Source: Actinacidiphila cocklensis
Lineage (GTDB): Bacteria; Actinomycetota; Actinomycetes; Streptomycetales; Streptomycetaceae
Length of the DNA: 64,000 bases
Direction of reading: 5' to 3'
Assembly: GCF_907177275.1 (NCBI RefSeq)
Contig: NZ_CAJSLV010000043.1
Span: forward strand, 1 to 64,000
Positions 4,994 to 34,252 of this stretch are shown piece after piece. The notes beneath the pieces were generated by a model, which was given only the letters and a program-made list of their open reading frames with translations, did no database searches and had not been told where the DNA came from. The position numbers and the translations under genes were made by a program. How positions within the stretch are numbered: position 1 is the stretch's first letter; every line of letters starts with the position of its first letter.

Positions 4994-5020
4994 GACCGAA
5001 CAGGCACCTGAGCTGTGACA
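4994..5020 (-). promoter_or_regulatory. ECF41-type promoter of the VOC gene
   Basis: On the minus strand: TGTCACA, a 16-base spacer, GGTC. Both boxes are exact matches to the consensus seen across this window. It faces the VOC gene, whose start is about 104 bases beyond the -10 box. Confidence 0.75.
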
Positions 5021-5070
5021 CCGGCCGTCGTTCGTGTTCCGTCTGAGCGCGGACATCGGGGACTCCCCCG

Positions 5071-7884
5071 TCAGCCTGCTCGCGCCGTGTCCTCGCCCCT
5101 GGTGTCCACGGCCGGGGTACTCGCAAGGGCTCCCTGCAGCGCGCGGCGCGAGGTGATCCCGAGCTTCACATAGACCTTCCGCAGGTGCCACTCCACGGTA
5201 TGGGGGCTGATGAAGAGTTCCGCGCCGATCTTCGCGTTCGTCAAGCCGTCGGCGGCGAGAGTCGCGACTTGTGACTCCTGGGGCGTGAGGGCGCTCGCCA
5301 GCATGTCCTCCCGCGCCCTTACGTGCTCACCGGTGGCGAGCAGTTCGCGGCGGGCCCGTTCGGCGAACGCGCTCGCACGCATCCCGTCGAACATCGCATG
5401 AGCGGTCCGGAGGTGCGTCCTGGCCAGCGATCGGCGCTGGCTGCGCCGCAGCCACTCGCCGTACAGCAGGTGGGTGCGTGCCACCTCCACCGTCACACCG
5501 CCGCGGCCGAACTCCTCGATCGCGGTGCGATACAGGCGATCGGCCTCGTCCCCGTCGGTGAGCAGAGCCTGGCTGCGGGCGCCGGCGCCGCGTGCCCAAC
5601 CCGAATCGGCGGCCCGGGTGAGCTCGATGAGCCGGGCCAGCGAGGCGCGGGCCTGATCGAGTTCACCGCAGCGGGTAGCGGCCTCGACGTGTTCGACCAG
5701 CGACAGTCCGGTGAAGTTGAAGCCGTCGTGCTCGATGCCCGTGCGTGCGGCCTCCATCGCCTCCTCGTACCGTGCCAAGCCGTTGAACAGCACCCCCTGG
5801 ATGTAGCCCATGGCTCCCAGCAGGGACACCTCGCCCCGCTGGTCGGCGCTGTGCTTGGCCTCGTCGATGATTCCGGCCGCGAGGTCCGCCTCGCCTCGCC
5901 ATGCGGCCAGGACGAGCGCCGCGTACTTGTGCGGAGCGTGGCCGGTCGCGGCGGCGATCGCGTCGGCTTCGTCGATCATCCTGGCTGCCTGGTCGAAGTT
6001 GCCGTAGTGGATGTGCACACCACCTGCGTAGATAAGGGCCGGTGGCAGTGCCCCGAGCGCGCCGACGTCGCGGGCCAGGCGCACCGCCCGGTTCGACAGC
6101 GTGTCCCACGCGTGCAGGTCCCAGGCGTAGTGAATGAACGCTTCCAGCGCGACCGGGACCAGCAGAAGCCAGCGCATGGTGGCCTCCCGGGTGCGGAGCT
6201 CCTCGTGGGCGAGCAGTTCCAGCGCGCCGCGCAGCGCCGGGATACCGGTCTCGTAACCGTCCGTCAGTAGCGCGGCCACACCGTCCAGGAGCAGGTCGGC
6301 GGCCCTGGAGCCCGAGGGCGGCGCACCCGACCCGCGGGCCGCGATCGCGGCGGCACGGGCACCCGTGGGACCGTGGACCCGGCCCGCGAAGATGGTCGTG
6401 CTGATCGCTTCGAGGTACGTCTCCCGCGCCAGTGGCGACCCGGCCGCGGTGAACTGTGCGGCGGCGTCGAGGAGCAGGGGTGCCGCCTCGTCACTGCGGC
6501 TGCGGGCGAAGAGAATCCTGGCGCGCAGGCGTGCCAGGCGGGCGCGGTCCAGTGCGCTCAGGGGACACAGCTCGGCAACCGTCGCAAGCTCGGTGGCCCG
6601 GTCAGGCGCGGCGGCCGAGAAGTGGGCCTCGGCCGCCGCGAGAGCCCGGCGCCCACGCGGCCACCGGTCCGGCGTCACCTCGGCCGCGCGTTCCAGCAGC
6701 ACCGCCTCGGCCGCGATGCCGCCGCGCTGGCGTGCGCGGTCGGCGGCCTGCTCCAGTCCCGCGGCCACGTCCTCGTCCGGCCCGTCGGCGGCCTCGGCGG
6801 CGTGCCAGGCGCGCCGGTCGGGGTCCAGAACCGGGTCCGTCGCCTCGGCCAGCGCCCGATGCACCGCTCGGCGCTCCTCGGGCTCTGCTCCGTGGTAGAC
6901 CGCCGAACGGACGAGCGGATGCCGGAACCGAACCGACTCACCGAATTCGATCAGGCCGGCGGCCTTGGCCGGTGCGGCGTAGGGAGTGATCTCGAGCGAG
7001 GCGGCTGCGCGGACCAGAAGGCGCGCGTCACCGACCGGTTCCGCCGCGGCGATCAGCAGCAGTTTCCGCGTCGCCGCCGGCAGCGACGCGAGCCGGCCGG
7101 CGAAGTCCCGCTCGATGCGACTGGCGAGCGGGCCCTGGATGACCGGGTAACTCGCGGAGTCCAGGCCATAGGCCAGTTCGGCGGCGCTGCGCCCGCGGGA
7201 GAATTCGAGCAGCGCCAGTGGGTTGCCGTGCATCTCGGCCACGAACCGGTCACGGATCCGCTTCTCCAGCCTCCCGCCGACCGCGGCCTCGAGGAGCTCC
7301 CCCGCCGCGGTGGTGTCGAGACCGTCGATCCGCAGCTCCGGCAGACCGGTGAGTGCCGCCTGCCCCTCGGGGTCACGCACCGCGAACGTCATCGCCACCG
7401 CCTCGGCCAGCAGTCTCCGGGCCACGAACTCCAGGGTCTGCAGGGACGCCTGGTCCAGCCACTGGGCGTCGTCGACCAGAACGAGCACCGGCCGGGTCTC
7501 CGAGGCCCGCGTGAGCAGGGTCAGCACGGCGAGACCGACCAGGAAGCGGTCGGGCGGGTCCCCGGCTGCCATCCCGAACGCCACGCGTAGGGCGTCGCGT
7601 TGAGGTTCCGGCAACGCTTCGAGCTCGCCCAGGAACGGCGCACACAGTTGGTGCAGGCTCGCGTAGGGCAACTCCATGTCGGCCTCGATGCCGTGAGCCC
7701 ACGTCACCTTCCCCGCTGACAACCGCGAGGCCACGTAATTCAGAAGCACCGACTTCCCGATGCCGGCCTCGCCACGGACGACCAGGACTCGGGACCCGCC
7801 TTCGCGCAGGCCGGCCAGCAGGTCGTCGAGCGCCGTGCATTCGCGATGCCGTCCAACCAGGTCCGGAAGCGGGCTGGCGATCAT
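5071..7884 (-). CDS. LAL-type LuxR family transcriptional regulator
   Basis: 937 residues with the layout of large ATP-binding LuxR regulators. An N-terminal AAA/STAND ATPase has Walker A GEAGIGKS (about residue 40) and Walker B VLVLVDDAQWLD. A long helical, TPR-like middle follows. The C-terminal LuxR helix-turn-helix reads LTPQESQVATLAADGLTNAK, then SPHTVEWHLRKVYVKLGI. Such proteins activate nearby genes in response to ATP and a ligand or partner. The ATG chosen follows GAAGGAG at good spacing; an upstream GTG would add 31 residues of poor composition. It is one of three close paralogues in this window (others start at 9732 and 29036), all inside or beside the ECF41 regulon, so control of that locus is the natural guess. 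No ECF41-type promoter precedes it. Confidence 0.9.
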   Translation of the reverse strand: MIASPLPDLVGRHRECTALDDLLAGLREGGSRVLVVRGEAGIGKSVLLNYVASRLSAGKVTWAHGIEADMELPYASLHQLCAPFLGELEALPEPQRDALRVAFGMAAGDPPDRFLVGLAVLTLLTRASETRPVLVLVDDAQWLDQASLQTLEFVARRLLAEAVAMTFAVRDPEGQAALTGLPELRIDGLDTTAAGELLEAAVGGRLEKRIRDRFVAEMHGNPLALLEFSRGRSAAELAYGLDSASYPVIQGPLASRIERDFAGRLASLPAATRKLLLIAAAEPVGDARLLVRAAASLEITPYAAPAKAAGLIEFGESVRFRHPLVRSAVYHGAEPEERRAVHRALAEATDPVLDPDRRAWHAAEAADGPDEDVAAGLEQAADRARQRGGIAAEAVLLERAAEVTPDRWPRGRRALAAAEAHFSAAAPDRATELATVAELCPLSALDRARLARLRARILFARSRSDEAAPLLLDAAAQFTAAGSPLARETYLEAISTTIFAGRVHGPTGARAAAIAARGSGAPPSGSRAADLLLDGVAALLTDGYETGIPALRGALELLAHEELRTREATMRWLLLVPVALEAFIHYAWDLHAWDTLSNRAVRLARDVGALGALPPALIYAGGVHIHYGNFDQAARMIDEADAIAAATGHAPHKYAALVLAAWRGEADLAAGIIDEAKHSADQRGEVSLLGAMGYIQGVLFNGLARYEEAMEAARTGIEHDGFNFTGLSLVEHVEAATRCGELDQARASLARLIELTRAADSGWARGAGARSQALLTDGDEADRLYRTAIEEFGRGGVTVEVARTHLLYGEWLRRSQRRSLARTHLRTAHAMFDGMRASAFAERARRELLATGEHVRAREDMLASALTPQESQVATLAADGLTNAKIGAELFISPHTVEWHLRKVYVKLGITSRRALQGALASTPAVDTRGEDTARAG

Positions 7885-8029
7885 GCGACGTGGCTCCTTC
7901 GGGGACTCCGGGGGCGGAAAAGCTCCCACAGCGATTCTCGGAACGATCCTTGTCACGATACCTGGGATGGTCTCCACACGTTGTGCCCAGATGTTGTGAT
8001 GGAATCCACGCCGAGAATGACCCCGCGGC

Positions 8030-8056
8030 TGTCACATCCGAGCCTTCTATCCGGTG
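8030..8056 (+). promoter_or_regulatory. ECF41-type promoter before a flavoprotein relic
   Basis: TGTCACA, 16 bases, GGTG: exact -35 and one mismatch in the -10. It faces the degraded flavoprotein gene starting near 8073, just as an exact copy faces the intact homologue at 32047. This suggests the promoter was duplicated along with the gene. Confidence 0.6.
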
Positions 8057-8072: not shown

Positions 8073-8397
8073 GTGTCCGCCGCAGTCACGGGAGGTCCAA
8101 TTTCTTCACTCGGACACCAACTCGCCACATCCGTCATCGTGGTGGGGGCCGGTAGCCCCGGACTCCGGGCGGCCGTCGAAATCGCCGACGCCGGTGTCGC
8201 GGTCCTGGCAGTGACCAGACACAGGGGCGATGAGGTTCACATGGCACACCCGCATCTGGCGTCGTGCGTCCGCACGTCGCCATGAGAACACCGGCGACGC
8301 GTTCCGCCTTGCCGTCACTGACGTGCAGGCCGATCCGGTGTGGTCTCCGAGGGCCGGGGGGCGCCGTGAACCGGTTCCGCCCATCCCCGCCGTCTAG
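8073..8397 (+). pseudogene. Relic of an SdhA/FrdA-like flavoprotein
   Basis: The first part reads ATSVIVVGAGSPGLRAAVEI, then ADAGVAVLAV, the FAD-binding beta-alpha-beta fold. It aligns with residues about 10-37 of the intact flavoprotein at 32047 (STTVLVIGTGGAGLRAAIEL). After a deletion and a +1 frame change, a second block reads HTRIWRRASARRHENTGDAF, matching HTRIWRRTSSRRDENTGDSF of the intact gene some 165 residues later. The frame then ends at a TAG overlapping the HxlR-type gene stop. Everything between and after is missing, so it cannot make a functional enzyme. It is a clear sign of an ancient duplication within the locus. Confidence 0.8.
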
Positions 8398-8798
8398 CCG
8401 TGACTGCCGCGCCGCGAGACGGTGGGCGTGTCGGGTAGGTGGCGGGACGCCCATCCCGCGAGTTCGCCCAGGATGGGCATGAGAGCCGTCCCGTCCGGGG
8501 TCAGACGGTAGCGAACCGTGATGGGCGGGCCGGTCTTCACCTCGCGGAGGGTGAGACCGGCGGCGGACAGTTCGGAGAGCCGCTCCGAGAGGACGGAGTC
8601 GCTGATGCCTTCCACCGCGCGCCGCAACTCTGCGTAGCCCAGGGGTCCGTGCTGGAGGGTGGCCAGGATGACGCCGTTCCACCGCTTGCCGAGGAAGGTG
8701 AACGCCTTGGCCAGCGCACCGTCGCAGGCGGCCGGATGGTGCGACTCCGCACTCGCGCCGCCCGAGCGGGCCGACCGAGCGCCCTTTGCTTCCTCCAT
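8394..8798 (-). CDS. HxlR-family transcriptional regulator
   Basis: 134 residues. A single winged helix-turn-helix of the HxlR type: CDGALAKAFTFLGKRWNGVI opens the domain with the family Cys and the KRW motif. It is followed by LATLQHGPLGYAELRRAVEG, the recognition region ISDSVLSERLSELSAAGL, and the wing ITVRYRLTPDG. HxlR proteins respond to reactive aldehydes, quinones or other electrophiles, often through the conserved Cys. It is divergent from a nitroreductase-like gene with about 105 bases between starts, the usual arrangement of an HxlR regulator and its redox-enzyme target. No ECF41-type promoter is present in that gap. Confidence 0.88.
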   Translation of the reverse strand: MEEAKGARSARSGGASAESHHPAACDGALAKAFTFLGKRWNGVILATLQHGPLGYAELRRAVEGISDSVLSERLSELSAAGLTLREVKTGPPITVRYRLTPDGTALMPILGELAGWASRHLPDTPTVSRRGSHG

Positions 8799-8903: not shown

Positions 8904-9512
8904 ATGTCCGTTACCGGAACCCTTCCCGGAGTCAACGACGATGCCCGCGCCGCGCTGTTCACCGCCGCGCGCACCGCTTACTCCTTCGCCGGCACGCCCG
9001 TCGACGACGAGAAGCTGACGGGTATCTGGGAGCTCGCCCGATGGGCACCGACCGCGGCGAACCTGCAGCCGCTGCGCGTCCTGTACATCCGTACGCCCGA
9101 AGGCAAGGAGCGCCTGCTGCCGAACCTCAACGAGGGAAACCGGCCCAAATCGGCCTCGGCACCTGTCGTCGCTGTCCTCGCCGTGGACGACCGCTTCCAC
9201 GACCACATCCCGCACATCCTTCCCATCCGTCCCGAGATGCAGGGCCACTTCGAAGCCGATCCCGCCCAGCGTGACGGCATCACGTCCTTCAACGGGCCGC
9301 TCCAGGCCGGCTACTTCATCCTGGCCGTCCGCGCCTTCGGCCTGGCCGCCGGACCGATGGGCGGCTTCGACCCGGCCGGGATCGACAAGGAGTTCTTCCC
9401 GGACAACGGCTGGCGCTCCATCCTCGTGGTCAACATCGGCCACGCGGCCGGGGCGCCGGAGTTCGACCGCATGCCCCGCGTGCCCCACGAGCACGCCCTC
9501 GACTGGGCCTGA
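8904..9512 (+). CDS. Nitroreductase family protein (malonic-semialdehyde-reductase-like)
   Basis: 202 residues. FMN-binding nitroreductase fold: RTAYSFAGTPVDDEKL, ELARWAPTAANLQPLRVLYI, the central VVAVLAVDDRFHDHIPHILP, and the C-terminal GWRSILVVNIGH. The length and the APTAANLQPLR motif fit the RutE/malonic-semialdehyde-reductase branch, which reduces aldehydes or nitro/quinone groups with NAD(P)H. GGAG lies eight bases before the ATG. The divergent HxlR gene is its probable regulator. It sits inside the redox-rich locus but lacks the shared ECF41-type promoter. Confidence 0.85.
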   Translation: MSVTGTLPGVNDDARAALFTAARTAYSFAGTPVDDEKLTGIWELARWAPTAANLQPLRVLYIRTPEGKERLLPNLNEGNRPKSASAPVVAVLAVDDRFHDHIPHILPIRPEMQGHFEADPAQRDGITSFNGPLQAGYFILAVRAFGLAAGPMGGFDPAGIDKEFFPDNGWRSILVVNIGHAAGAPEFDRMPRVPHEHALDWA

Positions 9513-9731
9513 CTCCCACAGCCGCGCCTACCGCCCCGGCAATTCGCGCGCGCGTCGGGCAGCTCTCCTGTGGGCGGCGCAAAGGCATCCTCGGCGGTTG
9601 CCCCGGGAAGCCACAGTGCCCGCTCGCGCCGGAGGCCGCGCAGCGCAGAAGAGATCCGCCCGCCTGCACCGATACGTCGGCCTCGGCCGCTCACGATGTT
9701 GTTAAGCTCGACGCGTGCGGGGATCATCGGG

Positions 9732-12473
9732 GTGAGTGAGGACGGTCCGGAGCGGCTGCGCGGCCGGCGCCGCGAGTGTGAGGTGCTCGACGGGCTGATC
9801 TCGGGCGTGGAGTCCGGAAGCAGTGCCGTCCTGGTCCTGCGCGGTGATGCCGGGATCGGGAAGTCCGCTCTGCTGGATCACCTGGCGGCACGCGCCGCGG
9901 GCTACCGCATCGCCCGCGGGGCGGGCGCCGAGTCGGAGATGGAGCTTCCGTTCGCGGGGCTGCATCGGCTGTGCGCCCCGTTCGTCGGACGCGCCGATTC
10001 CCTTCCGCCTCCACAGCGGGAAGCGCTGTCCACGGCGTTCGGGGTGAGCATGGGACCGCCTCCGGACCGTTTCCTGGTCGGTCTGGCCGTCCTCGGACTG
10101 CTCACCGACGTGGCCGCCGAGCGGCCGTTGTTCTGCCTCGTCGACGACGCGCAGTGGCTGGACCGCGTCTCGGCGCAGACGCTGGCGTTCGTGGCGCGCC
10201 GCATGCTCGCCGAACCGCTGGCGCTCGTCTTCGCCTCTCGCGAGCGGCGGGGACGCGACGAGTTGGCCGGTCTGCCCGAACTGGCACTCGACGGCCTCGA
10301 CGACACCGACGCCCGCGCGCTTCTGGACGCGGCGGCGAACGGGCCGATGGACGAGCGGATCCGCGTCCGCGTCCTCGCCGAAGCACGCGGCAACCCGCTC
10401 GCTCTGCTGGAGCTCCCCCACGGCCGGATCGAGGCGGAACCGGCCGGTGGGCTCGGCCTGTCCGATCCCGGACCGGTGGCCGGCCGCATCGAGCGCAGCT
10501 ACCTCGCACGGGTCCGCTCGCTGCCGACGGCGACGCAGCGGCTGTTGCTGACCGCCGCGGCCGAACCGATCGGCGACGTGACGCTGCTCAGGCGTGCCGC
10601 CGCGCGTCTGGACATCAGCCAGGACGCGGCCGGCCCGGCGGTCAGGGCGGGGTTGCTCGAGGTCGGGGCCATGGTGCGTTTCAGGCACCCGCTCCTACGC
10701 TCGGCGATCTACCGGTCGGCCGGGCTGGCGGACCTGCGGCAGGTTCACCGCGCCCTGGCAGAGGAGACCGATCCCCTCCTCGACCCCGACCGTCGCGCTT
10801 GGCACCTGGCGCAGGCGACGGTTCGGCCGGACGAGTCGATCGCCGCCGAACTGGAGGCGTCGGCGCAGCGGGCGCTGGCGCGAGGGGGCACCGCCGCGGC
10901 GGCCGCCTTCCTCGCCCACGCCGCGGCACTGACGCCTCACCCGGGGCGCAAGGCGACGCGTGCGCTCGCTGCGGCTCAGGCGAAACTCCGCGCCGGTGCA
11001 CCCGCCGCGGCGCGCGAACTGCTGGCCCTGGCACGGAGTGGAGTCCTCGACGACCTGGGTCGCGTCCGCGTGGACCTCGTCCAGGCCCGGATAGCCCTCG
11101 CCTCCAGCCGCCTGGACGAGGCGCTCCCCCTGCTGCTGGCCACCGCGCAGCATGCGGTGCCGCTCGATGTCGGCCTGGCTCGCGAGACCTTCCTCGACAC
11201 CCTGTCGGCCGCCATGTTCGCCGGGCGCCTCGCCACCGGCGTGAGCGTCCGCGAGGTGGCGTCGGCGGCGCAGAAGACGTCGGCGCCCACCACGAAACCG
11301 CCGGGCAACGCCGATCTGCTCCTGAACGCCTTCGCCGCACGGTTCACCGGCGGTTACCGCGTCGCGGTCGCCGCCTCGCACGACGCCCTACGGGCGTTCC
11401 GGCGGGAGTCCGACCCTGATGAGGTCCTGCGCTGGTCGTGGCTGGCCTCCGCTCTGGCGGCCGAGATGTGGGACTTCGAGGCGTGGACCGAGTTGGTGGC
11501 ACGCCACGTGCGAACCGCCCGCGCCGTCGGCGCGCTGACCGAGTTGCCCCTCGCGCTCAACTCGCAGGTCGTCGTCCACACGTGCGCCGGGGAACTTGAG
11601 GCCGCAGCACTGCTCACTGCGGAGATCGACCGGCTGCAGGAGGCGGTCGGCAGCAACTTCGCGCCGTACGGCACGATGACACTCGCCGCCTGGCAGGGAC
11701 GCGGACGCGAAGCCGCCCCGCTGATCGAGGCCAGCATGGAGGACGCGCTGCACCGCGGTGAGGGAATCGGCGTGGCCATCGCGCAGCGGGCCGGAGCGGT
11801 GCTCCACAACGGTCTGGGCAGGTACGAGGAGGCGTTCGGCGCAGCCCGTCTGGCGAGCGCGCATCCGCAGGACCTGGTCGCAGCCCACTGGGGACTGGTC
11901 GAACTGGTGGAAGCCGGCGTGCGCAGCGGTCGCCTCGACGCGGCCGAGGCCGCACTGGTCCGGCTGACCGAGACCACGGACGCGGCCGCCACACACTGGG
12001 CGTTGGGAGTCCAGACTCGCTCCCGTGCACTGCTGAGCCGGGGGAAAGCAGCAGAGGAGCTGTACCGGGAGTCGATCGAACGGCTCGGCAGCAGCCGGGT
12101 GGCGATGGAGACCGCCCGGTCGCACCTGCTGTACGGGGAATGGTTGCGGCGGGAGAGCCGCCGCGCCGACGCCCGGGAGCAGTTGCGCAAGGCACACGCG
12201 CTGTTCACGCGGTTCGGTGCGGGTGCGTTCGCCGAACGCGCCGTCCGCGAGCTGCGGGCCACCGGCGAGACGGTGGCCCGGCACGACGGTGCCCCCACGG
12301 CGACGCTCACCCCTCAGGAGACCCAGATCGCGCATCTGGCCCGCGAGGGGTTCACCAACTCCGAGATCGGCGCCCAGCTGTTCCTCAGCCCGCACACCGT
12401 GGAATGGCATCTTCGGAAGGTGTACGCCAAGCTCGGCATCGCCTCCCGCCGGCTCTTGCGCACCGCGCTGTGA
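9732..12473 (+). CDS. LAL-type LuxR family transcriptional regulator
   Basis: About 913 residues. Same architecture as the regulator ending at 5071: N-terminal ATPase with Walker A GDAGIGKS and Walker B LFCLVDDAQWLD, TPR-like helical middle, and C-terminal LuxR helix-turn-helix (LTPQETQIAHLAREGFTNSE; SPHTVEWHLRKVYAKLGI). The GTG start is chosen because GGGGA lies eight bases upstream and a TAAGCT -10-like box at 9702 would put transcription start near 9714; an in-frame ATG at 9696 is the alternative. The stop is 24 bases from the convergent ferritin-like gene. The three paralogues differ mostly in the middle region, as expected if they sense different signals. Confidence 0.88.
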   Translation: MSEDGPERLRGRRRECEVLDGLISGVESGSSAVLVLRGDAGIGKSALLDHLAARAAGYRIARGAGAESEMELPFAGLHRLCAPFVGRADSLPPPQREALSTAFGVSMGPPPDRFLVGLAVLGLLTDVAAERPLFCLVDDAQWLDRVSAQTLAFVARRMLAEPLALVFASRERRGRDELAGLPELALDGLDDTDARALLDAAANGPMDERIRVRVLAEARGNPLALLELPHGRIEAEPAGGLGLSDPGPVAGRIERSYLARVRSLPTATQRLLLTAAAEPIGDVTLLRRAAARLDISQDAAGPAVRAGLLEVGAMVRFRHPLLRSAIYRSAGLADLRQVHRALAEETDPLLDPDRRAWHLAQATVRPDESIAAELEASAQRALARGGTAAAAAFLAHAAALTPHPGRKATRALAAAQAKLRAGAPAAARELLALARSGVLDDLGRVRVDLVQARIALASSRLDEALPLLLATAQHAVPLDVGLARETFLDTLSAAMFAGRLATGVSVREVASAAQKTSAPTTKPPGNADLLLNAFAARFTGGYRVAVAASHDALRAFRRESDPDEVLRWSWLASALAAEMWDFEAWTELVARHVRTARAVGALTELPLALNSQVVVHTCAGELEAAALLTAEIDRLQEAVGSNFAPYGTMTLAAWQGRGREAAPLIEASMEDALHRGEGIGVAIAQRAGAVLHNGLGRYEEAFGAARLASAHPQDLVAAHWGLVELVEAGVRSGRLDAAEAALVRLTETTDAAATHWALGVQTRSRALLSRGKAAEELYRESIERLGSSRVAMETARSHLLYGEWLRRESRRADAREQLRKAHALFTRFGAGAFAERAVRELRATGETVARHDGAPTATLTPQETQIAHLAREGFTNSEIGAQLFLSPHTVEWHLRKVYAKLGIASRRLLRTAL

Positions 12474-18366: not shown

Positions 18367-18410
18367 ATTTCTGTACGCCCCGCCACGTGTGCGTACCCGA
18401 CCGAAAGACG

Positions 18411-26264: not shown

Positions 26265-29036
26265 TCAGGACGTGGTCGCCGTGTCTTCGAGCTGCACCGG
26301 GTCGATGTCCTTGCGCGAGGAGATTCCCAGCTTCGCGAACACCTTGCGCAGGTGCCATTCGACTGTGTGGGGGCTGAGGAACAGCCGGGCACCGATCTCC
26401 GGGTTCGTGAAACCCTCCTGGGCAAGTCGTGCGATCTCGGCCTCTTTCGCCGTGAGGACGGCCGGCGTCGCCGGGGCGCGTTCGTGCACCTTCACGCCCG
26501 CGGCCTGCAGTTCCCGCCGCGCACGCTCCGCGAATGCCTCGGCCCCCGCATCGCTGAGCATCTCGTATGCCTCGCTCAGCTGGATACGAGCCTCCTTCCG
26601 CCGCTGCTTCGAGCGGAGCCACTCGCCGTAGCGGAGCCGCGCCCTGGCGCTGTCCATCCGGGTCCCTGCGGTGTCGAGCTGCTCGATCCCTTCCCGGTGC
26701 AGGCCGTCGGCGGTCCGCCCTACGCTCAGGAGGGCACGGGTGGCGGCGGAGATGCCACGCGCCCAGGCGGTTCCGCTGACCTGGGCCATCTCCTCGATCG
26801 TCCGCACGGCCTCGGCTGCGTGGGCTGCCCGTCCCAGTCGTACGGCCGCTTCGACAAATTCCACCCGGGACTGGAGGGACAATCCGAGTTCCTGCGGGTT
26901 CTCGCATCCGCGCTCGGCGGAGACGTAGGCCTCTTCGTATCGGCCGAGGCCGTTGCAGAGGACTGCCGACGCCCACTGCGTAGCGGTCGTCACTTTGCCC
27001 TCCGCCTGCAGGAGACGGTCGTGCGTGACCGTTTCGATCGCCTCCCGGGCCAGGGCCTCCCGTCCCTTGAAGGACTCCACGAGAAGTGCTCCGTAATGGG
27101 CGAAGAAGCTGCTGCCCGTGGCTTCACCGATCGCGTCCGCTTCCACGGCAAGGGAGGCGGCGCCGCGAAGGTCACCGGCGAACACCCGGTTCGACAGGCG
27201 CAGCAGGAGCGCGGAGGGCAGCACGGCGAGCGCTCCGTTGCTGCGGGCGAGGTCGACCAACCGCGCCGAGAGCTCGGACCAGGCGTCGAAGTCCCAGGTG
27301 CTGTGCGCCATCCGGCACACGAGCGGAAGCCAGCCCAGGGCCTCCTCCCGTGAGACACTTTCCGTCCGGAACGTGGCCACGGCCTCAAGGATGACCGGCG
27401 CGCCCACGGCGTATCCGTCGGTGACCGCCCGGGCGATACCGGTCAGCAGAAGCCCCTCACGGCTCCCGGTGTCGACGTGGCCGGGCGCGCTCAGCACCGC
27501 CTCGGCAACGTCGCAGACTCCGCCGGTGGCCAGCCGGCCCGCGGTCAGGGCCGCGTAGATGGCGTCGCGGTATGTCTGGACGGCGAGTTCGGAGTCGTAC
27601 GGCTGGAGCCGCCTGGCCGCTTCGAGCAGCAGCGGCAGTCCGGCGCTGGCGCTCTTGGCCGCGGACATGATCTGTCCTCGGAGGAGCGTCGCCTGCCCTT
27701 CTGCGGCCTCGTCGAGACGGCTCAGTTCCGCCGCATCGACCAATTCCAGTGCCGCGTCGAAAGCGCCCGCCTGGTATGTGGCCTGCGCCGTGGCCAATGC
27801 CCTGGCTCCGCGCCGTGCCGGATCCGGAGTGAGTTCGGTGGCCCGGTACAGGAAGGCCGCCGCCGCAGCGATCCCGCCACGCCGTTGCGCCCGCTCGGCG
27901 GATCCCTCCAGTTCGGCAGCGACCGCCTCGTCCGGTTCCGCTGTTGCGCTCGCCAGGTGCCACACGCGACGTTCGGGATCCAGTCCGACGTCGATCGAGT
28001 CGGCCAGAGCCTTGTGCACGCGCCGCTGTTCCTCGAAGCCGACGGCGCGGTACGCCGCGGAGCGAACCAGCGGGTGCCGAAAGCGCACCCATGTGCCGAG
28101 GATGAGCAGGCCCGACGCCTCGGCTTGGGTCAGGGCGGTGTCCACGCAGATGCCCAGGCGCTCGGCAGCGCGGCGCAGCAACGCCACGTCACCGATAGGC
28201 TCGATCGCGGCGATGAGAAGCAACTGCTGCGTCTCGGCCGGAAGTGACCGGATCCGCCGGAGGAAGCCCGTCTCGATCTGGCTGGACAGAGGCCGCGCCT
28301 CGGGTCCACCGAATCCTCCGGCCATTTCGACGGCGGTCAGGCCTCGCGGCAGCTCCAGCAGGGCCAGCGGATTGCCGCGCGTCTCGGCGACGATACGGTC
28401 CCGCACACGCCGGTCGAGCGGTCCGGTGACGACTGCGTCGAGGAGCCGGTGGGAATCGCGCTCGTCCAGTCCACGGACCGGTAGCTCCGGCAGGTCGGCG
28501 AGGATCTCGCGCGAGCCGGACTCACGGACGGCCAGAACGAGCAGAACCGATTCAGCCAGCAGCCGACGAGCCACGAACTCCAGAGTCTGGGCGGATACAC
28601 GGTCCAGCCACTGCGCGTCGTCGACCAGGCAGAGCAACGGCTCCTCGCCGCCTGCTTCGGCAAGGAGGGTCAGGACGGCCAGGCTCACCAGAAACCGGTC
28701 AGGGGCGTCGCCGGCCTGCATACCGAACGCCGTGCGCAGTGCGTTCCGCTGCGGCTCGGGAAGAGCGTCGAGGCGGGGCAGCAGCGGAGCGCACAGTTGG
28801 TGCAGCCCGGCGTAGGAGAGCTCCATCTCGGATTGCACCCCGGCCGCCCTGACGACGCGGCATCCGACCGCTTGGTCGAGCAGGTGGTTCAGCAGCTCGG
28901 TCTTCCCGATTCCCGCCTCACCGCGCACCACGAGGACGCCGCTTCGCCCGGCCCTGGCCTGCGTGAGGAGGCCATCGAGGACCCTGCACTCCTCCCGCCG
29001 CCCGATGAGCTCAGTTCCTGCTCCACCTCTCGCCAT
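26265..29036 (-). CDS. LAL-type LuxR family transcriptional regulator
   Basis: 923 residues. Walker A GEAGIGKT lies near residue 40, Walker B is LLCLVDDAQWLD, then come a TPR-like middle and the C-terminal LuxR helix-turn-helix (LTAKEAEIARLAQEGFTNPE; SPHTVEWHLRKVFAKLGI). GGGAGG precedes the ATG by five bases. It is the third LAL paralogue of the window, directly upstream of the truncated ECF41 sigma gene and on the same strand (162 bases apart). It could be co-transcribed with or control that gene. The stop is followed only by short sequence before the sigma start. Confidence 0.9.
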   Translation of the reverse strand: MARGGAGTELIGRREECRVLDGLLTQARAGRSGVLVVRGEAGIGKTELLNHLLDQAVGCRVVRAAGVQSEMELSYAGLHQLCAPLLPRLDALPEPQRNALRTAFGMQAGDAPDRFLVSLAVLTLLAEAGGEEPLLCLVDDAQWLDRVSAQTLEFVARRLLAESVLLVLAVRESGSREILADLPELPVRGLDERDSHRLLDAVVTGPLDRRVRDRIVAETRGNPLALLELPRGLTAVEMAGGFGGPEARPLSSQIETGFLRRIRSLPAETQQLLLIAAIEPIGDVALLRRAAERLGICVDTALTQAEASGLLILGTWVRFRHPLVRSAAYRAVGFEEQRRVHKALADSIDVGLDPERRVWHLASATAEPDEAVAAELEGSAERAQRRGGIAAAAAFLYRATELTPDPARRGARALATAQATYQAGAFDAALELVDAAELSRLDEAAEGQATLLRGQIMSAAKSASAGLPLLLEAARRLQPYDSELAVQTYRDAIYAALTAGRLATGGVCDVAEAVLSAPGHVDTGSREGLLLTGIARAVTDGYAVGAPVILEAVATFRTESVSREEALGWLPLVCRMAHSTWDFDAWSELSARLVDLARSNGALAVLPSALLLRLSNRVFAGDLRGAASLAVEADAIGEATGSSFFAHYGALLVESFKGREALAREAIETVTHDRLLQAEGKVTTATQWASAVLCNGLGRYEEAYVSAERGCENPQELGLSLQSRVEFVEAAVRLGRAAHAAEAVRTIEEMAQVSGTAWARGISAATRALLSVGRTADGLHREGIEQLDTAGTRMDSARARLRYGEWLRSKQRRKEARIQLSEAYEMLSDAGAEAFAERARRELQAAGVKVHERAPATPAVLTAKEAEIARLAQEGFTNPEIGARLFLSPHTVEWHLRKVFAKLGISSRKDIDPVQLEDTATTS

Positions 29037-29399: not shown

Positions 29400-30176
29400 T
29401 CACCGGGTGGAGTCGGTGGACTTCGGCAGCAGGAAACCGTCGACGTACAGATCGACATGCTCGTTGTAGAACGCGGTGAGCCCGGCGATGCGGTTGGCGT
29501 GGATGGTCGGGAGGTCGTACGTCCAGGCAATGTCCTCGTGGGAAGCGGTGGCGCTGTCGAACGACCAGTAACTGCTGGTCGTTCCTTTGTACGGGCATCG
29601 GGTCACCGTGTCCGAACGCCGCAACCGGGACCAGTCGACGTCCATGGGGTTGAGGTAGTAGCGGGTCGGCAGGCCGGTCTCGAACAGCTTCACGCACCCG
29701 ACGGCCTCTGCCAGCACGGCACCGTCCGACTCGACACGGACGCTGCTGCTGGAACGCAGGGCGTCCACGCGGGAGTACGGGCTCCGGGGATGAACGAAGA
29801 CCGGCTCTTCCTCCTCGAACCACGCGTCCAGCGCCTCCCACTCGAAGCGCACGGTGTCGCGCAGAGGTCCCGGAGCGCCCTCCCCCCAGACCCACCCGGC
29901 CCCCGCACGGATCTCCGGACCTACCTGCAGGGTGTGACGGTGCGCGGGGCCGGCACCGAGTTGCTCCGTGTGCTTGTCGTCGTGGAGCACGCCGTCCACC
30001 AGGTCCTCGATCGGGATGCTGAACTGGGGGTACGCCTGCCATTCCCACACGTACAGCGCGCGGCGCGTGTCGAAGGCGACCCGACCACCGATCATTCCCC
30101 GGATACGGCGGGGAACGGGCTCGACATGGCCGATCGGGACGATGAGGCTCGGGTGCAGGACACTTTCGGTTGCCAT
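29400..30176 (-). CDS. DUF427 domain protein (two copies)
   Basis: 258 residues holding two tandem DUF427 units. The first is around GGRVAFDTRRALYVWEWQAY (residues 25-100). The second has the characteristic block VRVESDGAVLAEAVGCVKLF, then GLPTRYYLNPMDVDWSRLRR and CPYKGTTSSYWSF (residues 125-235), ending IAGLTAFYNEHVDLYVDG. The biochemical function of DUF427 is not established; the fold is beta-rich and often appears near oxidoreductases. GAGGTGATC lies before the ATG. The cupin gene upstream on the same strand is separated by a strong hairpin. No ECF41-type promoter is found directly before this gene, so membership of the regulon is open. Confidence 0.88.
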   Translation of the reverse strand: MATESVLHPSLIVPIGHVEPVPRRIRGMIGGRVAFDTRRALYVWEWQAYPQFSIPIEDLVDGVLHDDKHTEQLGAGPAHRHTLQVGPEIRAGAGWVWGEGAPGPLRDTVRFEWEALDAWFEEEEPVFVHPRSPYSRVDALRSSSSVRVESDGAVLAEAVGCVKLFETGLPTRYYLNPMDVDWSRLRRSDTVTRCPYKGTTSSYWSFDSATASHEDIAWTYDLPTIHANRIAGLTAFYNEHVDLYVDGFLLPKSTDSTR

Positions 30177-30300
30177 AGTGATCACCTCGTGTTCGCTGTG
30201 GTGTGCTCGCCCGGCCTGGTGGCTGTCCTGGAAGCCGGGGGCTCTCATGTCAGAACTCCCGTACTGGCCAAACGTCCCCAGTCCGGGACCCCGGGAGTGC

Positions 30301-30356: not shown

Positions 30357-30824
30357 TCAGGCATGGGGCCGCGGGGCGCGCAGGTGGGCACGCCTGTCCA
30401 GCTCCTCCTCGTCGACGAGTTCGAGCATGGGTTTGCCAGGGGCGCACATCATCGTGACGACGAACTCGGTCCTCTCGTCGGACAGGGCGTTGCCGTCCTG
30501 GTAGTGGATGGGGTCGCCGCCGGGCTCCCAGAACGTGCCGCCGGCTTCGACGACCCGCTCGGGCTCGCCCTCGAGTTCGAAGCGCACCGCGCCCTTGATG
30601 ACGTAGCCGAACGCCGGGCCGGAGTGTCGGTGCGGCGGGGTGCCGGGGTCACCGGGCTCCCACTGAACGTGGATGGTCATCGCCGAGGCACCGTCGGGAA
30701 TGGTGATCGGAGAGGCGTCCTGGAGCATCTTCGCCGCTCGTGTCCAGCTCGGGCCGTCCTCGCCGACGGTTCCGCCACCGTGGGCGCCGTGGGCGCCGTG
30801 GGCGTGCTGTGAATTCTCCGACAT
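30357..30824 (-). CDS. Cupin-domain protein
   Basis: 155 residues. Cupin motif one: GTPPHRHSGPAFGYVIKGAV (His-x-His and downstream ligand); motif two around GGTFWEPGGDPIHYQDGNAL with the last His. The N-terminus has a short His/Ala/Gly repeat (HAHGAHGAHGGG) that might bind metal. Likely a small metal-binding oxygenase, isomerase or sensor; the substrate is unknown. GGAAAGG precedes the ATG. An exact ECF41-type promoter lies at 30922-30948, so this cupin is a direct regulon member, unlike the cupin at 18411. Confidence 0.87.
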   Translation of the reverse strand: MSENSQHAHGAHGAHGGGTVGEDGPSWTRAAKMLQDASPITIPDGASAMTIHVQWEPGDPGTPPHRHSGPAFGYVIKGAVRFELEGEPERVVEAGGTFWEPGGDPIHYQDGNALSDERTEFVVTMMCAPGKPMLELVDEEELDRRAHLRAPRPHA

Positions 30825-30921: not shown

Positions 30922-30948
30922 GACCGGGTCTCCGGTGGATCTGTGACA
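30922..30948 (-). promoter_or_regulatory. ECF41-type promoter of the cupin gene
   Basis: Minus strand: TGTCACA, 16 bases, GGTC, exact; about 98 bases from the -10 to the ATG. The first nine spacer bases match those of the ferritin-like promoter at 13715-13741. Confidence 0.8.
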
Positions 30949-31028: not shown

Positions 31029-31661
31029 TCAGTGAGGCATGAGCAGCATCACGGCCGTCCCCAGCGCCATCGCCCCATCGCGCAGGTGACCGTACGGGCC
31101 GTCCGTCGCCGCAGCGCGGTGCGCGGTGTCCGCGGCGGACCACGGAGGGGGCAGCGGATTCAACCACCTCATTGCGTAGACGAGGAGATAGAGCGTCAGC
31201 AGTACGGTGATCGCGTCAGCCGTTGCCGGGGCAGCCGCGGCGTGGGCGACAGCCGCAGCATGATGCGTCACCGGGACGCTCCCGGCCAGGGCGTCGGGGG
31301 GAAGGACCATCCGGCCGTCGGGCATCCGCGGCATCCAGGCCATCGCCGCCATGCCGACCGCAAGTGGCAGCCAGCCGGCGATGGCCGCCACCGCGTGCCC
31401 GGTGCGGCGGTGGAGCGCGGTCAGCGGGAACCACAGGGCGGCTGCCGTGAAGAGCACCGCCATGGTCGGACCTGACAGCCAGCGGTGGAGGTTCCACGGC
31501 ATCGCCGACATGGCCACGGCCATCACGGCGTGCAGGAGGTGGTCCACCCGGTTCCGGCGCCCCATCCCCGCCTGCCGGATGCCGTGCAGTAACGCGTGCA
31601 ACGCCACCAGCAAGAAGAGCGTCGTCAGTATGCAGCGCACAACGCCGACGGGAGTGTCCAT
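31029..31661 (-). CDS. DUF5134 family membrane protein
   Basis: 210 residues with five or six hydrophobic helices (CILTTLFLLVALHALLHGI; HLLHAVMAVAMSAMPWN; MAVLFTAAALWFPLTAL; IAGWLPLAVGMAAMAWM; ITVLLTLYLLVYAMRWL). His- and Met-rich loops (MAWMPRMPDGRM, HHAAAVAHAAAAP) suggest copper handling. DUF5134 members often neighbour copper-related or M56 peptidase genes in actinomycetes, though none is adjacent here. The ribosome site is weak and the start could be slightly downstream. No ECF41-type promoter was found for it. Confidence 0.75.
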   Translation of the reverse strand: MDTPVGVVRCILTTLFLLVALHALLHGIRQAGMGRRNRVDHLLHAVMAVAMSAMPWNLHRWLSGPTMAVLFTAAALWFPLTALHRRTGHAVAAIAGWLPLAVGMAAMAWMPRMPDGRMVLPPDALAGSVPVTHHAAAVAHAAAAPATADAITVLLTLYLLVYAMRWLNPLPPPWSAADTAHRAAATDGPYGHLRDGAMALGTAVMLLMPH

Positions 31662-31984
31662 GGGGCACGTCAGGTGGCGGGACGCTTGGCCACGCTACCG
31701 CCCGACTCGCGAGTCGCGCCGCACGCGGCCCCACCCGTCCTTCCCCGCCGTCCCTCCTGCCGGCCGTGGCCGGGGGCGAAGTGGTCCTGTACCGGCGTCT
31801 CATCTGACACTGGGTGCGCCTTTCCTCATACGTGTCTGTTCACGTTCCTGACCGGGTGAGCGAGCGGTTCGTGACATGGCACGGCCCCGAAGAGTGGAGC
31901 CACGGGCTCGGCGGGTGCCCCGTCCTGCCGCCCGCAGTCAGCCGGCGGGCTCGGCGGCGTGACCGGGGATCCCGACAGGTCCCG

Positions 31985-32011
31985 TGTCACAAACCGCGGC
32001 CTGACCTGGTC
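31985..32011 (+). promoter_or_regulatory. ECF41-type promoter of the intact flavoprotein gene
   Basis: TGTCACA, 16 bases, GGTC, exact; 36 bases to the GTG. The remaining ~320 bases back to the DUF5134 gene show no gene or hairpin that I can support. Confidence 0.83.
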
Positions 32012-32046: not shown

Positions 32047-33777
32047 GTGCCTATCACCGAACGACGTCTTTCCACCACGGTGCTGGTGATCGGCACCGGC
32101 GGGGCCGGCCTGAGGGCGGCGATCGAGCTGGCGGAGGCCGGCGTCGATGTGCTTGCCGTCGGCAAACGTCCCAAGGAGGACACCCACACCTCCCTTGCCG
32201 CCGGCGGGATCAACGCCGCCCTGGCCACCATGGACCCCGAGGACAGCTGGCAGCAACACGCCGCGGACACCCTCAAGGAGAGTTACCTGCTTGCCGACCC
32301 CCGCACGGTCGAGATCGTCACTCAGGGCGCGGCCCGCGGCATCGATGACCTGGAGCGGTACGGCATGGCCTTCGCCCGCGAGGAGGACGGCCGGATCTCG
32401 CAGCGCTTCTTCGGCGCCCACACGTTCCGCCGCACCGCCTTCGCCGGCGACTACACCGGCCTGGAGATCCAGCGCACGCTCATCCGGCGGGCGAGCCAGC
32501 TGCGCATACCCGTACTCGACAGCGTCTACATCACCCGCCTCCTGGTCCATGACGGTGCCGTCTTCGGGGCCTACGGCTTCGACCTCACCAACGGCGCCCG
32601 TCACCTGGTTCACGCGGACGCCGTCATCCTCGCGGCCGGCGGGCATACGCGCATCTGGCGGCGCACCTCCTCGCGGCGCGACGAGAACACCGGCGACTCG
32701 TTCCGCCTGGCCGCAGAAGCGGGAGCCCGGCTGCGTGACCCCGAACTGGTGCAGTTCCACCCCTCCGGCATCCTCGAACCGGAGAACGCCGCCGGCACCC
32801 TGGTCAGTGAGGCGGCCCGCGGCGAGGGCGGCGTCCTGCGCAACATCCTCGGCGAGCGGTACATGAGCCGCTACGACCCCCAGCGCATGGAACTGTCCAC
32901 GCGCGACCGGGTGGCTCTGGCCTCCTACACCGAGATCAAGGAAGGCCGCGCCACCCCCAACGGTGGGGTGTGGCTCGACGTCTCCCACCTCCCCCGCCAG
33001 ACGATCATGAACCGGCTCCCCCGGGTCTACCAGACGCTCCTCGACCTGCAGATGCTCGACATCACCCGCGACCCCATCGAGGTCGCCCCCACGGCCCACT
33101 ACTCGATGGGCGGCGTCTGGGTCCGCCCCGAGGACCACAGCACCGATGTCCACGGCCTGTACGCCATCGGCGAGGCCTCCAGCGGCCTGCACGGGGCCAA
33201 CCGCCTCGGTGGCAACAGCCTCATCGAGCTCCTCGTCTACGGCCGCATCACCGGCCAGGCGGCCGCAGCCTACTCGGAGTCCCTGACCGCGCAGCCCCGG
33301 TCCACGGCCGCCGTGGCCCAGGCCCGGGCCGAAGTCGACGAACTGCTCTCCGCCGACGGACCCGAGAACGTCCGCGCCCTTCAGCGAGCCATCCGGAACA
33401 CCATGACCGAGCACGCCGGCGTCGTCCGTGACGAACAAGGTCTGCGCGCCGGGCTCACGGAACTGGACACCATCGAGAAGCGGATGGAGAACGTCGGAGT
33501 CCACCCCGACATCGCCGGCTTCCAGGACCTGGCCCACGCCTTCGACCTCAAGTCGGCGGCCCTGGCGGCCCGCGCGACCCTGGAAGCCGCGCTGGAACGA
33601 CGGGAGACCCGCGGTTGTCACAACCGCAGTGACTTCCCCGACATGGATCCCGCTCTGCGCGTCAATCTCGTCTGGTCCCTGACGACCGGAATCACCCGGG
33701 AGACCATTCCGCCCGCTGCGGGAGAGATCGCCTCCCTCATGACAGATGTCACCACCGAGGGGAAACTCATGGAATAG
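32047..33777 (+). CDS. SdhA/FrdA-like FAD-binding dehydrogenase, isolated flavoprotein subunit
   Basis: 576 residues. FAD site: TTVLVIGTGGAGLRAAIELA. EDTHTSLAAGGINAAL contains His47, aligned with the His that covalently binds FAD in succinate dehydrogenase/fumarate reductase; L-aspartate oxidases lack it. VQFHPSGI, YSMGGVWV and HGANRLGGNSLIELLVYG are substrate- and FAD-site motifs of SdhA/FrdA. The C-terminal helical domain is present. There is no iron-sulfur subunit or membrane anchor gene nearby, so it must use another electron partner or act alone. The GTG follows GGGAG. An exact ECF41-type promoter precedes it, and a decayed copy lies at 8073-8397. Confidence 0.9.
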   Translation: MPITERRLSTTVLVIGTGGAGLRAAIELAEAGVDVLAVGKRPKEDTHTSLAAGGINAALATMDPEDSWQQHAADTLKESYLLADPRTVEIVTQGAARGIDDLERYGMAFAREEDGRISQRFFGAHTFRRTAFAGDYTGLEIQRTLIRRASQLRIPVLDSVYITRLLVHDGAVFGAYGFDLTNGARHLVHADAVILAAGGHTRIWRRTSSRRDENTGDSFRLAAEAGARLRDPELVQFHPSGILEPENAAGTLVSEAARGEGGVLRNILGERYMSRYDPQRMELSTRDRVALASYTEIKEGRATPNGGVWLDVSHLPRQTIMNRLPRVYQTLLDLQMLDITRDPIEVAPTAHYSMGGVWVRPEDHSTDVHGLYAIGEASSGLHGANRLGGNSLIELLVYGRITGQAAAAYSESLTAQPRSTAAVAQARAEVDELLSADGPENVRALQRAIRNTMTEHAGVVRDEQGLRAGLTELDTIEKRMENVGVHPDIAGFQDLAHAFDLKSAALAARATLEAALERRETRGCHNRSDFPDMDPALRVNLVWSLTTGITRETIPPAAGEIASLMTDVTTEGKLME

Positions 33778-33870
33778 CTGTCGCCGGCCCTGAGAAGCGC
33801 CGGGCACACCGGGACCCTTCCACGGAAGGTGAGCACGGTTGCCCGGCAGCGCCGACGGACCGTCGGGTTC

Positions 33871-34137
33871 TCAGGCGGCGTTGACCGTCGCCGCCGGCTC
33901 GCGCGCCGAGCGCTGCCGCATCGCGCGGCGCTCCCCCTCCGTCGTGCAGCCCCAGATCCCCTCGACCGGCCCCACGTCGATGGCCCACGCCAAGCACTGC
34001 CTCGTCACGGGACAACGGCGGCAGACGGCTTTCGCCTCGTCCGTCTGCAGCACTGCCAGACCACTGTTGATGCCGCCTACAGGGAAGAAGAGATCAGGGT
34101 CTTCGCGTAGGCAGAGGCCCTGTGCGCGCCAATCCAT
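33871..34137 (-). CDS. WhiB-like [4Fe-4S] transcription factor
   Basis: 88 residues. Ligands Cys9, Cys39, Cys42 and Cys48 are in place (VCRRCPVTRQC). It is nearly superimposable on the WhiB protein at 22551-22868 (both DPDLFFP, LQTDEAKAVC, EGIWG). The turn motif reads GIWGCTT instead of the usual GGTT, adding a fifth Cys close to the cluster domain. AGGAGG lies before the ATG. An exact ECF41-type promoter is at 34226-34252. It probably forms or senses through an iron-sulfur cluster and works with a sigma factor; a second copy under the same sigma suggests paired or antagonistic roles. Confidence 0.92.
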   Translation of the reverse strand: MDWRAQGLCLREDPDLFFPVGGINSGLAVLQTDEAKAVCRRCPVTRQCLAWAIDVGPVEGIWGCTTEGERRAMRQRSAREPAATVNAA

Positions 34138-34225
34138 GGAACACCTCCTGGGTATCGCGGGAATACCGCTTCGTCGCGTCGGGAGACGTGAAAAGGCGGT
34201 GAACGTGCCCGCGCTTCACTTCAGA

Positions 34226-34252
34226 GACCGGACGGCCGACGTGGGTGTGACA
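34226..34252 (-). promoter_or_regulatory. ECF41-type promoter of the second WhiB gene
   Basis: Minus strand: TGTCACA, 16 bases, GGTC, exact; 89 bases to the ATG. The surrounding gap (34138-34446, 309 bases) shows no further supportable gene. Confidence 0.82.

Follow-up and report, generated by a model that had tools for sequence, protein, structure and literature searches.

Does a single sigma factor of the ECF41 group serve a whole island of promoters in Actinacidiphila cocklensis? The question is raised by a stretch of 64,000 nucleotides (nt) of its genome (assembly GCF_907177275.1, contig NZ_CAJSLV010000043.1, positions 1 to 64,000; hereafter the window), in which copies of the motif TGTCACA-N16-GGTC gather between positions 4994 and 34252 together with two genes for sigma factors of the extracytoplasmic function (ECF) type, named here SIG1 and SIG2. 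An earlier inspection of the letters alone, termed below the sequence-only reading, had proposed that this island is one large ECF41 regulon. The motif cluster is real, and on sequence evidence the island very probably represents an ECF41-type regulon of unusual size. The best explanation, which we hold to be probable though well short of assured, is that a single ECF41 sigma factor, SIG1, has the island as its own self-contained regulon.

The motif in the window and in the genome

The window contains 12 exact copies of the motif, all within 4994-34252, against a chance level of 0.04 (100 dinucleotide shuffles; maximum 1), close to the value of about 0.03 calculated previously. All 12 copies have a spacer of 16, and no TGTCACA/GGTC pair with any other spacer from 12 to 21 was found in the window, so the constant spacing claimed for the motif is borne out. 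Three further copies carry one mismatch (8030, 23028 and 31850). A search allowing up to two mismatches in the window gave 32 matches, 17 of them with two mismatches; since 19.25 matches were expected by chance for the whole search, the two-mismatch matches were treated mostly as noise and 16 of the 17 were not used. The remaining one, at 20929, was accepted as a site because 11 of the 12 orthologue rows of its gene have an exact site, making four near copies in all. The fifteen sites of the sequence-only reading (12 exact and three near) were all recovered at the coordinates it gave, and the near copy at 31850 on the minus strand is one that it had overlooked. Plausible gene starts, some of them uncertain, lie 33-188 nt from 15 of the 16 sites, in line with the 34-183 bases given earlier for every site except 8030, a near copy with no gene in front of it.

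The whole genome was then scanned (9,137,899 bases in 134 contigs, the window being C42:1-64000). The exact motif was found 12 times, every copy inside the island, and the reversed control gave 0. Allowing one mismatch raised the count to 73, of which the island holds 15; the reversed control reached 43, and near matches beyond the island are thus close to background. A relaxed form of the motif (spacer 15-17, G or T before GTC) gave 17 matches genome-wide, five of them beyond the island, and its control gave six. The canonical TGTCACA-N16-CGTC has six copies in the genome (reversed control two), all outside the island, and three of these are close to two further ECF41 genes, located on C12 and C113. 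A chance origin of the sites was rejected given 12 exact copies against 0.04 expected and their confinement to the island, and a genome-wide spread of the motif was rejected given island-only exact copies and a one-mismatch count near the control. The absence of the motif beyond the island, previously noted for the window, therefore extends to the genome, and a comparable density elsewhere, which the sequence-only reading had named as grounds for giving up its proposal, was not found.

The sites, the genes that they face and the two sigma genes are as follows, with fractions giving the orthologue rows that carry an exact site.

4994-5020, minus: exact site facing 4432-4890, start 103 nt off (3/3)
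4432-4890, minus: glyoxalase-superfamily protein, 152 amino acids (PF00903, E 6.6e-12)
8030-8056, plus: near copy (GGTG), relic or chance, geneless
12498-13568, minus: ferritin-like protein, tentative start (PF12902)
13715-13741, minus: exact site of the ferritin-like gene 12498-13568 (3/8)
13800-13826, plus: exact site of the NAD(P)-binding gene 13911-14762 (26/32)
13911-14762, plus: NAD(P)H-binding / NmrA-like protein of the carboxymuconolactone decarboxylase, oxidoreductase or epimerase (COE) type (PF13460)
14955-15851, plus: SIG1, complete ECF41 sigma factor, 298 amino acids
15976-16002, plus: exact site of the NmrA-like gene 16047-16793 (48/67)
16047-16793, plus: NmrA-like NAD(P)-binding protein
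17051-17437, minus: small protein without assigned family, about 113-128 amino acids, start uncertain
17575-17601, minus: exact site of the gene 17051-17437 (or start 17392) (2/7)
17707-17733, plus: exact site of the CMD gene 17771-18244 (20/26)
17771-18244, plus: carboxymuconolactone decarboxylase family protein (CMD; PF02627, E 1.6e-23)
19923-20879, minus: alpha/beta hydrolase, hormone-sensitive-lipase type, NCBIfam matches below cut-off
20929-20955, minus: degraded site (TGTCAGC) of the hydrolase 19923-20879 (11/12)
21031-22512, minus: extra QcrB-type cytochrome b (NF050120, 697 bits, cut-off 500)
22561-22587, minus: exact site of the cytochrome b gene (7/23)
22551-22868, minus: WhiB-type protein 1, WhiB1 (PF02467)
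22940-22966, minus: exact site of WhiB1 (18/22)
23028-23054, plus: near site (TGTCACG) of 23113-23307, with the identical TGTCACG form in genome G014
23113-23921, plus: two small proteins without assigned family (23113-23307, 23391-23921)
23987-25336, minus: FAD/NAD(P) oxidoreductase, labelled NDH-2-like by ourselves (PF07992, E 8.7e-36)
25370-25396, minus: exact site of 23987-25336, within the SIG2 3' end (18/24)
25329-26216, minus: SIG2, ECF41-derived sigma factor without the DGGG/NPxKL part
30357-30824, minus: cupin 2
30922-30948, minus: exact site of cupin 2 (23/31)
31029-31661, minus: DUF5134 protein
31850-31876, minus: near site (TGTCACG) of the DUF5134 gene (exact 0/7, near 6/7)
31985-32011, plus: exact site of the SdhA/FrdA-like gene (68/84)
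32047-33777, plus: SdhA/FrdA-like flavoprotein (PF00890 and PF02910; the NCBIfam matches displayed are all below cut-off)
33871-34137, minus: WhiB-type protein 2, WhiB2, 88 amino acids (PF02467, E 4.2e-23)
34226-34252, minus: exact site of WhiB2 (18/22)

Conservation of the sites among relatives

Among 35 Actinacidiphila genomes (labelled G; several members carry Streptomyces names), seven have 5-25 sites and 28 have 0-2, and among 297 genomes of the family 24 have at least five (9-25 in 21 of them) and 273 have 0-4. The island genes of G014 and G017 are reordered, inverted or split across contigs, and many retain the site in front. The sites of G025 are partly dispersed over the chromosome; 15 outside the main cluster were inspected by reading frames, and of these one faces a CMD gene, one a RidA-like gene and others a short-chain dehydrogenase/reductase gene, a hydrolase gene and another ECF41 gene. 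The predicted promoter, rather than gene order, is the feature common to the relatives.

Orthologues of the 15 site-bearing window genes were compared in 17 island pieces and 76 named loci, with rows of at least 50% identity, paralogues included, and TGTCACA-N16-KGTC at most 250 nt upstream counted as exact. An exact site was present in 266 of 370 rows and the near form in 285 of 370. For seven siteless window genes the figure was 10 of 95 rows, the ten coming from a cupin gene and a hydrolase gene, each with a site of its own in certain genomes.

A sample of 80 loci (labelled L) around the SdhA-like gene in named genomes, the best 80 of 582 relatives, comprised 1.58 Mb. Four of these (L054, L060, L102 and L110) duplicate genomes already in the sample; they were excluded from the orthologue, sigma-motif and site-to-gene-frame counts and are still included in the spacer, logo and SdhA-like upstream-site figures. 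The SdhA-like gene is preceded, at a distance of 32-52 nt, by an exact site of the GGTC or TGTC form in 64 of the 80. A spacer of 16 before GGTC occurs 356 times, each of the remaining lengths between 12 and 21 four times or fewer, and the reversed control 0 times; by -10 word the tally is GGTC 356, TGTC 57, AGTC 6 and CGTC 3. In a logo of 387 distinct sites, GGTC has a pyrimidine in front and A/T bases behind, with weaker preferences nearby; elsewhere outside the boxes the logo is near flat, apart from a purine (84%) 10 nt past GGTC, a position at which an ECF start site could lie. When the sites of the window, island pieces and loci were pooled, 444 of 511 had a coding-like frame starting at most 320 nt away, and 425 of these frames belong to 26 families with at least three members.

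Thirteen of the loci have no GGTC or TGTC site: one from Catenulispora, two from Streptomyces and ten from genera that we take to belong to the Microbacteriaceae. A sigma match above 150 bits is present in 56 of the 67 site-bearing loci and missing in 12 of the 13 siteless ones. In the Microbacteriaceae loci (L120-L122, L124-L126, L128-L130 and L133) the SdhA-like protein is 83% identical to that of the island, and neither the motif nor a sigma match was found in the locus.

SIG1 and the proposed regulon

The sequence-only reading had counted two ECF41 sigma genes in the island. This holds for SIG1, which is complete; SIG2 lacks the SnoaL_2-type part. In SIG1 the sigma2 and sigma4 domains (Pfam r2 and r4_2) are joined by a GPWLPEP linker, as in ECF41 factors, and are followed by a C-terminal extension of about 100 residues bearing SYSDGGGVR and MWVMNPVKLA, with DGGG and NPxKL being what we take to be the motif letters of the ECF41 extension. 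SIG1 scores 339 bits against TIGR02957 (cut-off 323), and the match runs to model position 278 of 281. At E 0.001 Pfam gave no SnoaL_2 match for this protein, and its closest solved structure is SigJ of Mycobacterium tuberculosis (5xe7, E 1.2e-43). Its neighbours are of the COE kind, with an NAD-binding gene upstream, an NmrA-like gene downstream and CMD nearby. The element CTTGTAGAATG upstream of SIG1 is not the regulon motif, which stands upstream of SIG1 orthologues in only 3 of 49 rows. Many of these orthologues are instead preceded by an element like CTTGTAGCATG (TAG[ACG]AT in 32 of 49 rows; in the window within 14900-14955), which we read as a probable housekeeping -10. On this reading SIG1 would be made constantly and gated as a protein.

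Presence of SIG1 follows presence of the sites. A SIG1 orthologue (at least 448 bits) is found in all seven genus genomes with at least five sites versus 2 of the 28 others (G001 and G032; Fisher P = 5e-6, a guide only as the genomes are related). The minimal layout of G032 (L135:9711-11163) consists of one TGTCACA-N15-GGTC site, CMD and then SIG1, which is the single-target arrangement described in Wecke 2012 (PMC3426412). G017 has 10 sites and its SIG1 orthologue lies on a separate contig; nine SIG1-like matches were found in that genome, eight of which extend at least to query residue 296 and the ninth, with 37% identity, to 247, and no SnoaL-less sigma factor of the SIG2 kind is among the nine. 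SIG1 is therefore the likely driver and may suffice alone. In a tree of 13 class A rows, 14 class B rows, 16 of 17 SnoaL-less sigma factors and 9 of 16 other ECF41-like matches of this genome, from which ambiguous rows were excluded, a branch with 99 in the Shimodaira-Hasegawa-like approximate likelihood ratio test (SH-aLRT) parts the regulon sigma factors from the nine other ECF41-like proteins. The sigma-motif comparison excluded rows shorter than 180 residues, at locus edges or with stops.

The explanation that we favor is built on the sites, their confinement, their conservation with their genes, their co-occurrence with SIG1 and the domain losses described below. To these we add by inference that the promoters are active, which sigma factor reads them, what signal acts, what part SIG2 plays and what the regulon does physiologically. 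SIG1 would be produced from a housekeeping-type promoter, and the SnoaL_2-type domain fused to it would keep it in check until its release by a redox signal or a small molecule. SIG1-RNA polymerase would then initiate at about fifteen TGTCACA-N15-Y-KGTC promoters and switch on genes with redox and detoxification functions. As a paralogue that lacks the inhibitory part, SIG2 would read the identical promoters without a signal, its level being set by its own transcription, here probably via the regulator LAL3 encoded immediately upstream of it.

The predicted targets in the window include several enzymes (a glyoxalase, two NmrA-like NAD(P)-binding proteins, CMD with a cupin, two hydrolases and the NDH-2-like enzyme) along with a ferritin-like protein, the extra QcrB, two WhiB proteins, the second cupin, DUF5134, small unassigned proteins and the SdhA-like flavoprotein. 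The genome has three copies of QcrB-type cytochrome b, the island gene 21031-22512 being one, and neither QcrA nor QcrC is among its annotated neighbors; likewise, SdhB is not among the annotated neighbors of the SdhA/FrdA-like gene 32047-33777. Further site-bearing families in relatives are a ferredoxin, two OsmC-like families and, identified by sequence appearance only, pyruvate dehydrogenase E1 and a phosphatase. The target set points to redox and electrophile defense with a partial rewiring of electron transport.

Several observations weigh against this picture of one large regulon. ECF41 has been described as controlling a single target, with CGTC as the published -10 consensus (Wecke 2012, PMC3426412). 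No convincing gene was found for 67 of the 511 sites, nor for 3 of the 15 dispersed G025 sites (L141, L142 and L145), and several of those 15 are more than 240 nt from a start. The site is poorly kept for cytochrome b (7/23), gene 17051 (2/7) and the ferritin-like gene (3/8), and DUF5134 is also among the weakest orthologue sets. Eleven of the 67 site-bearing loci have no sigma match above 150 bits inside the locus, and G001 has a SIG1 orthologue and a single site that is not near the SIG1 gene. Finally, the site counts are not those of a random sample, since the loci were chosen via one regulon gene and the rows include paralogues. Against these stand the island-only motif, the sites kept through scrambled gene orders and the co-occurrence with SIG1, on which the proposal of a single large ECF41 regulon is upheld. 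With 12 exact and at least three supported near sites, the regulon would be wider than the one or two targets usual for the group, as the sequence-only reading had also held.

SnoaL-less sigma factors, class D proteins and known systems

The island genes that bear no site of their own in the window are as follows.

5071-7977, minus: LAL-type LuxR regulator 1 (AAA_16 and GerE), siteless, with a site in 0/3 orthologue rows
9570-12473, plus: LAL-type LuxR regulator 2
18312-18899, plus: cupin protein, 3' of CMD (own site in 4/16 orthologue rows)
19050-19895, minus: alpha/beta hydrolase
26265-29036, minus: LAL-type regulator 3 (LAL3), immediately upstream of SIG2
29400-30248, minus: DUF427 protein

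Next to the geneless copy at 8030, an HxlR-type regulator gene (about 8394-8741, minus) is divergent from a nitroreductase-type gene (8904-9512, plus). Beyond the island are two long reading frames, 38738-42913 (1391 codons) and 45234-49472 (1412 codons).

SIG2 retains sigma2, WLPEP and sigma4, with good scores for both sigma domains. DGGG and NPxKL are absent from it, and so is the C-terminal SnoaL_2-type extension; against TIGR02957 it scores 204 bits, below the cut-off of 323, and is matched only to position 193 of 281. On these grounds SIG2 was rejected as a complete ECF41 factor and is named ECF41-derived only. Its start is perhaps the GTG at 26102, preceded by AAGGAG, and its reading frame extends into the promoter of the NDH-2-like gene 23987-25336. 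In G017 the sole remnant of the SIG2 region is the promoter-bearing 3' tail before the NDH-2-like gene (L043:5411-5512), which suggests how SIG2 acquired its present end.

Related loci hold 16 further SnoaL-less sigma factors, 17 with SIG2, of which 16 retain 43-46 residues past sigma4, to the DGGG column, and one retains 25. Several end in unrelated tails and two also lack WLPEP. On the tree, loss of the SnoaL domain takes five changes by parsimony, and well-supported branches force only one. The regulon motif stands in front of a SnoaL-less sigma gene in four relatives of the genus. A SnoaL-less sigma gene comes right after a LAL regulator gene in three genomes, in the window (26265-29036/25329-26216), in G014 and in Embleya (L039 and L090 for these two relatives), as if the LAL protein substituted for the lost sensor domain. 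In Ecf41Bli, truncation at residue 204 gave about 20-fold higher activity, truncation at 192 was weaker and truncation at 167, with no extension, was inactive (PMC3426412). The natural truncations resemble the hyperactive form because they keep 43-46 residues and position 204 lies 37 residues past 167. SIG2 is thus presumably active.

Alternatively, SIG2 may be decaying, its 3' end lost and its function gone, which would leave a single working sigma factor in the island. Such decay would fit the run of its frame into promoter DNA belonging to the neighboring gene, the only part of the region that G017 retains. Yet the 16 other SnoaL-less homologues retain their sigma2 and sigma4 frames, 15 of them with an equal stretch to the DGGG column, and the regulon motif precedes four such genes in the genus; since SIG2 itself also keeps WLPEP and well-scoring sigma domains, we think its decay unlikely, if with some real chance of being correct. 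A second alternative reverses the roles, with SIG2 rather than SIG1 running the island, active whenever made and timed by LAL3. Its lack of the inhibitory part, its place directly behind LAL3 and the hyperactivity of a comparable laboratory truncation (PMC3426412) speak for this, but the 10 sites of G017 go together with a SIG1 orthologue, no SIG2-type factor is among the nine SIG1-like matches of that genome, and SIG1 orthologues follow site presence across the genus. We consider it improbable that SIG2 is the main driver.

The motif might also be bound by another regulator, such as a LAL or WhiB protein, instead of being a sigma promoter, and the island does hold three LAL and two WhiB genes. 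This is hard to reconcile with the fixed 16-base spacing, the single orientation toward the gene, the A/T bases after the second box and the purine at a fitting start position. The -35 box is identical to that of ECF41 (PMC3426412), the motif co-occurs with SIG1, and none of 21 LAL orthologue rows has a site, and a regulator of this kind is very improbable as the reader of the motif. That the sites are copies of a mobile promoter repeat with little regulatory meaning, an idea prompted by so many copies in a short stretch, was rejected as extremely improbable given spacers and flanks with almost no letters in common and orthologues that retain their sites through rearrangement.

A further group of proteins is carried by many relatives. 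Class D proteins (47 non-duplicate rows, namely L046:15317-16201, L049:17367-18248, L105:15340-16218 and 44 others) are ECF41-derived, with a degenerate or missing sigma4 and the SnoaL_2-type half retained; all lack WLPEP and have the NPxK end, and in 28 of the 47 rows the regulon motif lies at most 320 nt upstream. In an alignment of 23 of them, the invariant residues concentrate in the C-terminal half and three proteins are without most of sigma4. The Pfam matches at E <= 0.01 are all weak. Of the 23 proteins, 19 match r4_2, 18 match r2 (best E 5e-7) and four match SnoaL_2 (best E 3e-5). The SnoaL_2-type half was assigned because of DGGGK/NPDKL, a SigJ match (E 2.1e-32) and a predicted model, which is confident for that half only (mean predicted local distance difference test score 72.9, predicted template modeling score 0.50). 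Over its whole length the model gives a weak structural match (best Protein Data Bank entry SigJ 5xe7, E 1.3e-11, template modeling score 0.37). In PhyR-type sigma mimicry, a sigma-like fold possibly acts on protein partners instead of DNA. Pfam PhyR_sigma-like matches class D weakly (best E 0.0014, 4 of 23 proteins); unlike PhyR, class D is ECF41-derived and carries a SnoaL_2-type half.

In the genus, class D is present in G002, G007, G012 and G025 (362-447 bits), and a partial protein of G014 (251 bits) is class D by sequence. The G006 match (256 bits) was rejected as an ordinary ECF41 factor with WLPEP. Class D was found neither in G017 nor in the window's own genome, whose three best matches (201-221 bits) were rejected as SigJ-like genes with WIPEP. 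As a tentative scheme, in which sensor and sigma would have separated within one regulon, SIG1 might start the response, the SnoaL-less paralogues might be ungated amplifiers and class D might be a brake or ligand sensor in trans, with some amplifiers and often class D under the regulon's own promoter in the genomes that have them.

Compared with the single-COE-target ECF41/SigJ systems (PMC3426412), the island shares the -35 TGTCACA, the spacer of 16 (published as 16 +/- 1), the WLPEP linker, the long C-terminal extension of SIG1 and the CMD and epimerase/NmrA-type targets beside the sigma gene; the -35 box and these targets agree with what the sequence-only reading stated of the group. It differs in its roughly fifteen targets, some of respiratory type, its second sigma factor without the inhibitory part, and its GGTC/TGTC -10 (GGTC in all 12 exact window copies) in place of CGTC, which makes the predicted island promoters a GGTC version of the ECF41 type. 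SIG2 and 15 homologues resemble Ecf41Bli cut at 204 (PMC3426412) in keeping the first part of the extension and losing the rest. Unlike that construct, their truncations are natural, lie on several branches, in several cases have unrelated tails, and are known from sequence.

RpoE10 of Azospirillum, an ECF41 factor, controls motility and lateral flagella, as cited in PMC8999054 and PMC12826043. It is like the island in tying an ECF41 factor to a multi-gene function, with functions that differ, and by analogy it suggests that ECF41 can control more than one gene. In Streptomyces coelicolor, QcrB2 is SCO7120 and SCO7104 and SCO7112 are sigma factors, according to PMC7931247, PMC2631018 and PMC11538686. 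By its abstract, PMC11538686 covers 64 engineered strains of S. coelicolor in an RNA-seq set on over-expressed sigma factors, three factors having yielded no transformants. No description of a large ECF41 regulon with this motif was found in the open-licence PubMed Central literature, as far as its texts were available. The -35, the spacer, the type of sigma factor and the CMD/epimerase-type targets are familiar from described ECF41 systems; the SnoaL-less partner, the -10 word and the size of the target set are not. The S. coelicolor genes SCO7104, SCO7112 and SCO7120 may perhaps mark an island of the same kind, a likeness of names and locus numbers only that was not used as support.

ECF41 is a widely distributed sigma group (PMC3426412), and the predicted regulon of about fifteen promoters is conserved, with relatives in many Streptomyces. 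It would give ECF41 a likely physiology of redox and electrophile defense with respiratory rewiring, and its promoters would form a clean reporter set for seeking the ECF41 signal. The recurrent natural loss of the inhibitory part at one place offers a ready test of the fused anti-sigma model, and the split between GGTC and CGTC suggests how several ECF41 factors may stay apart in one genome.

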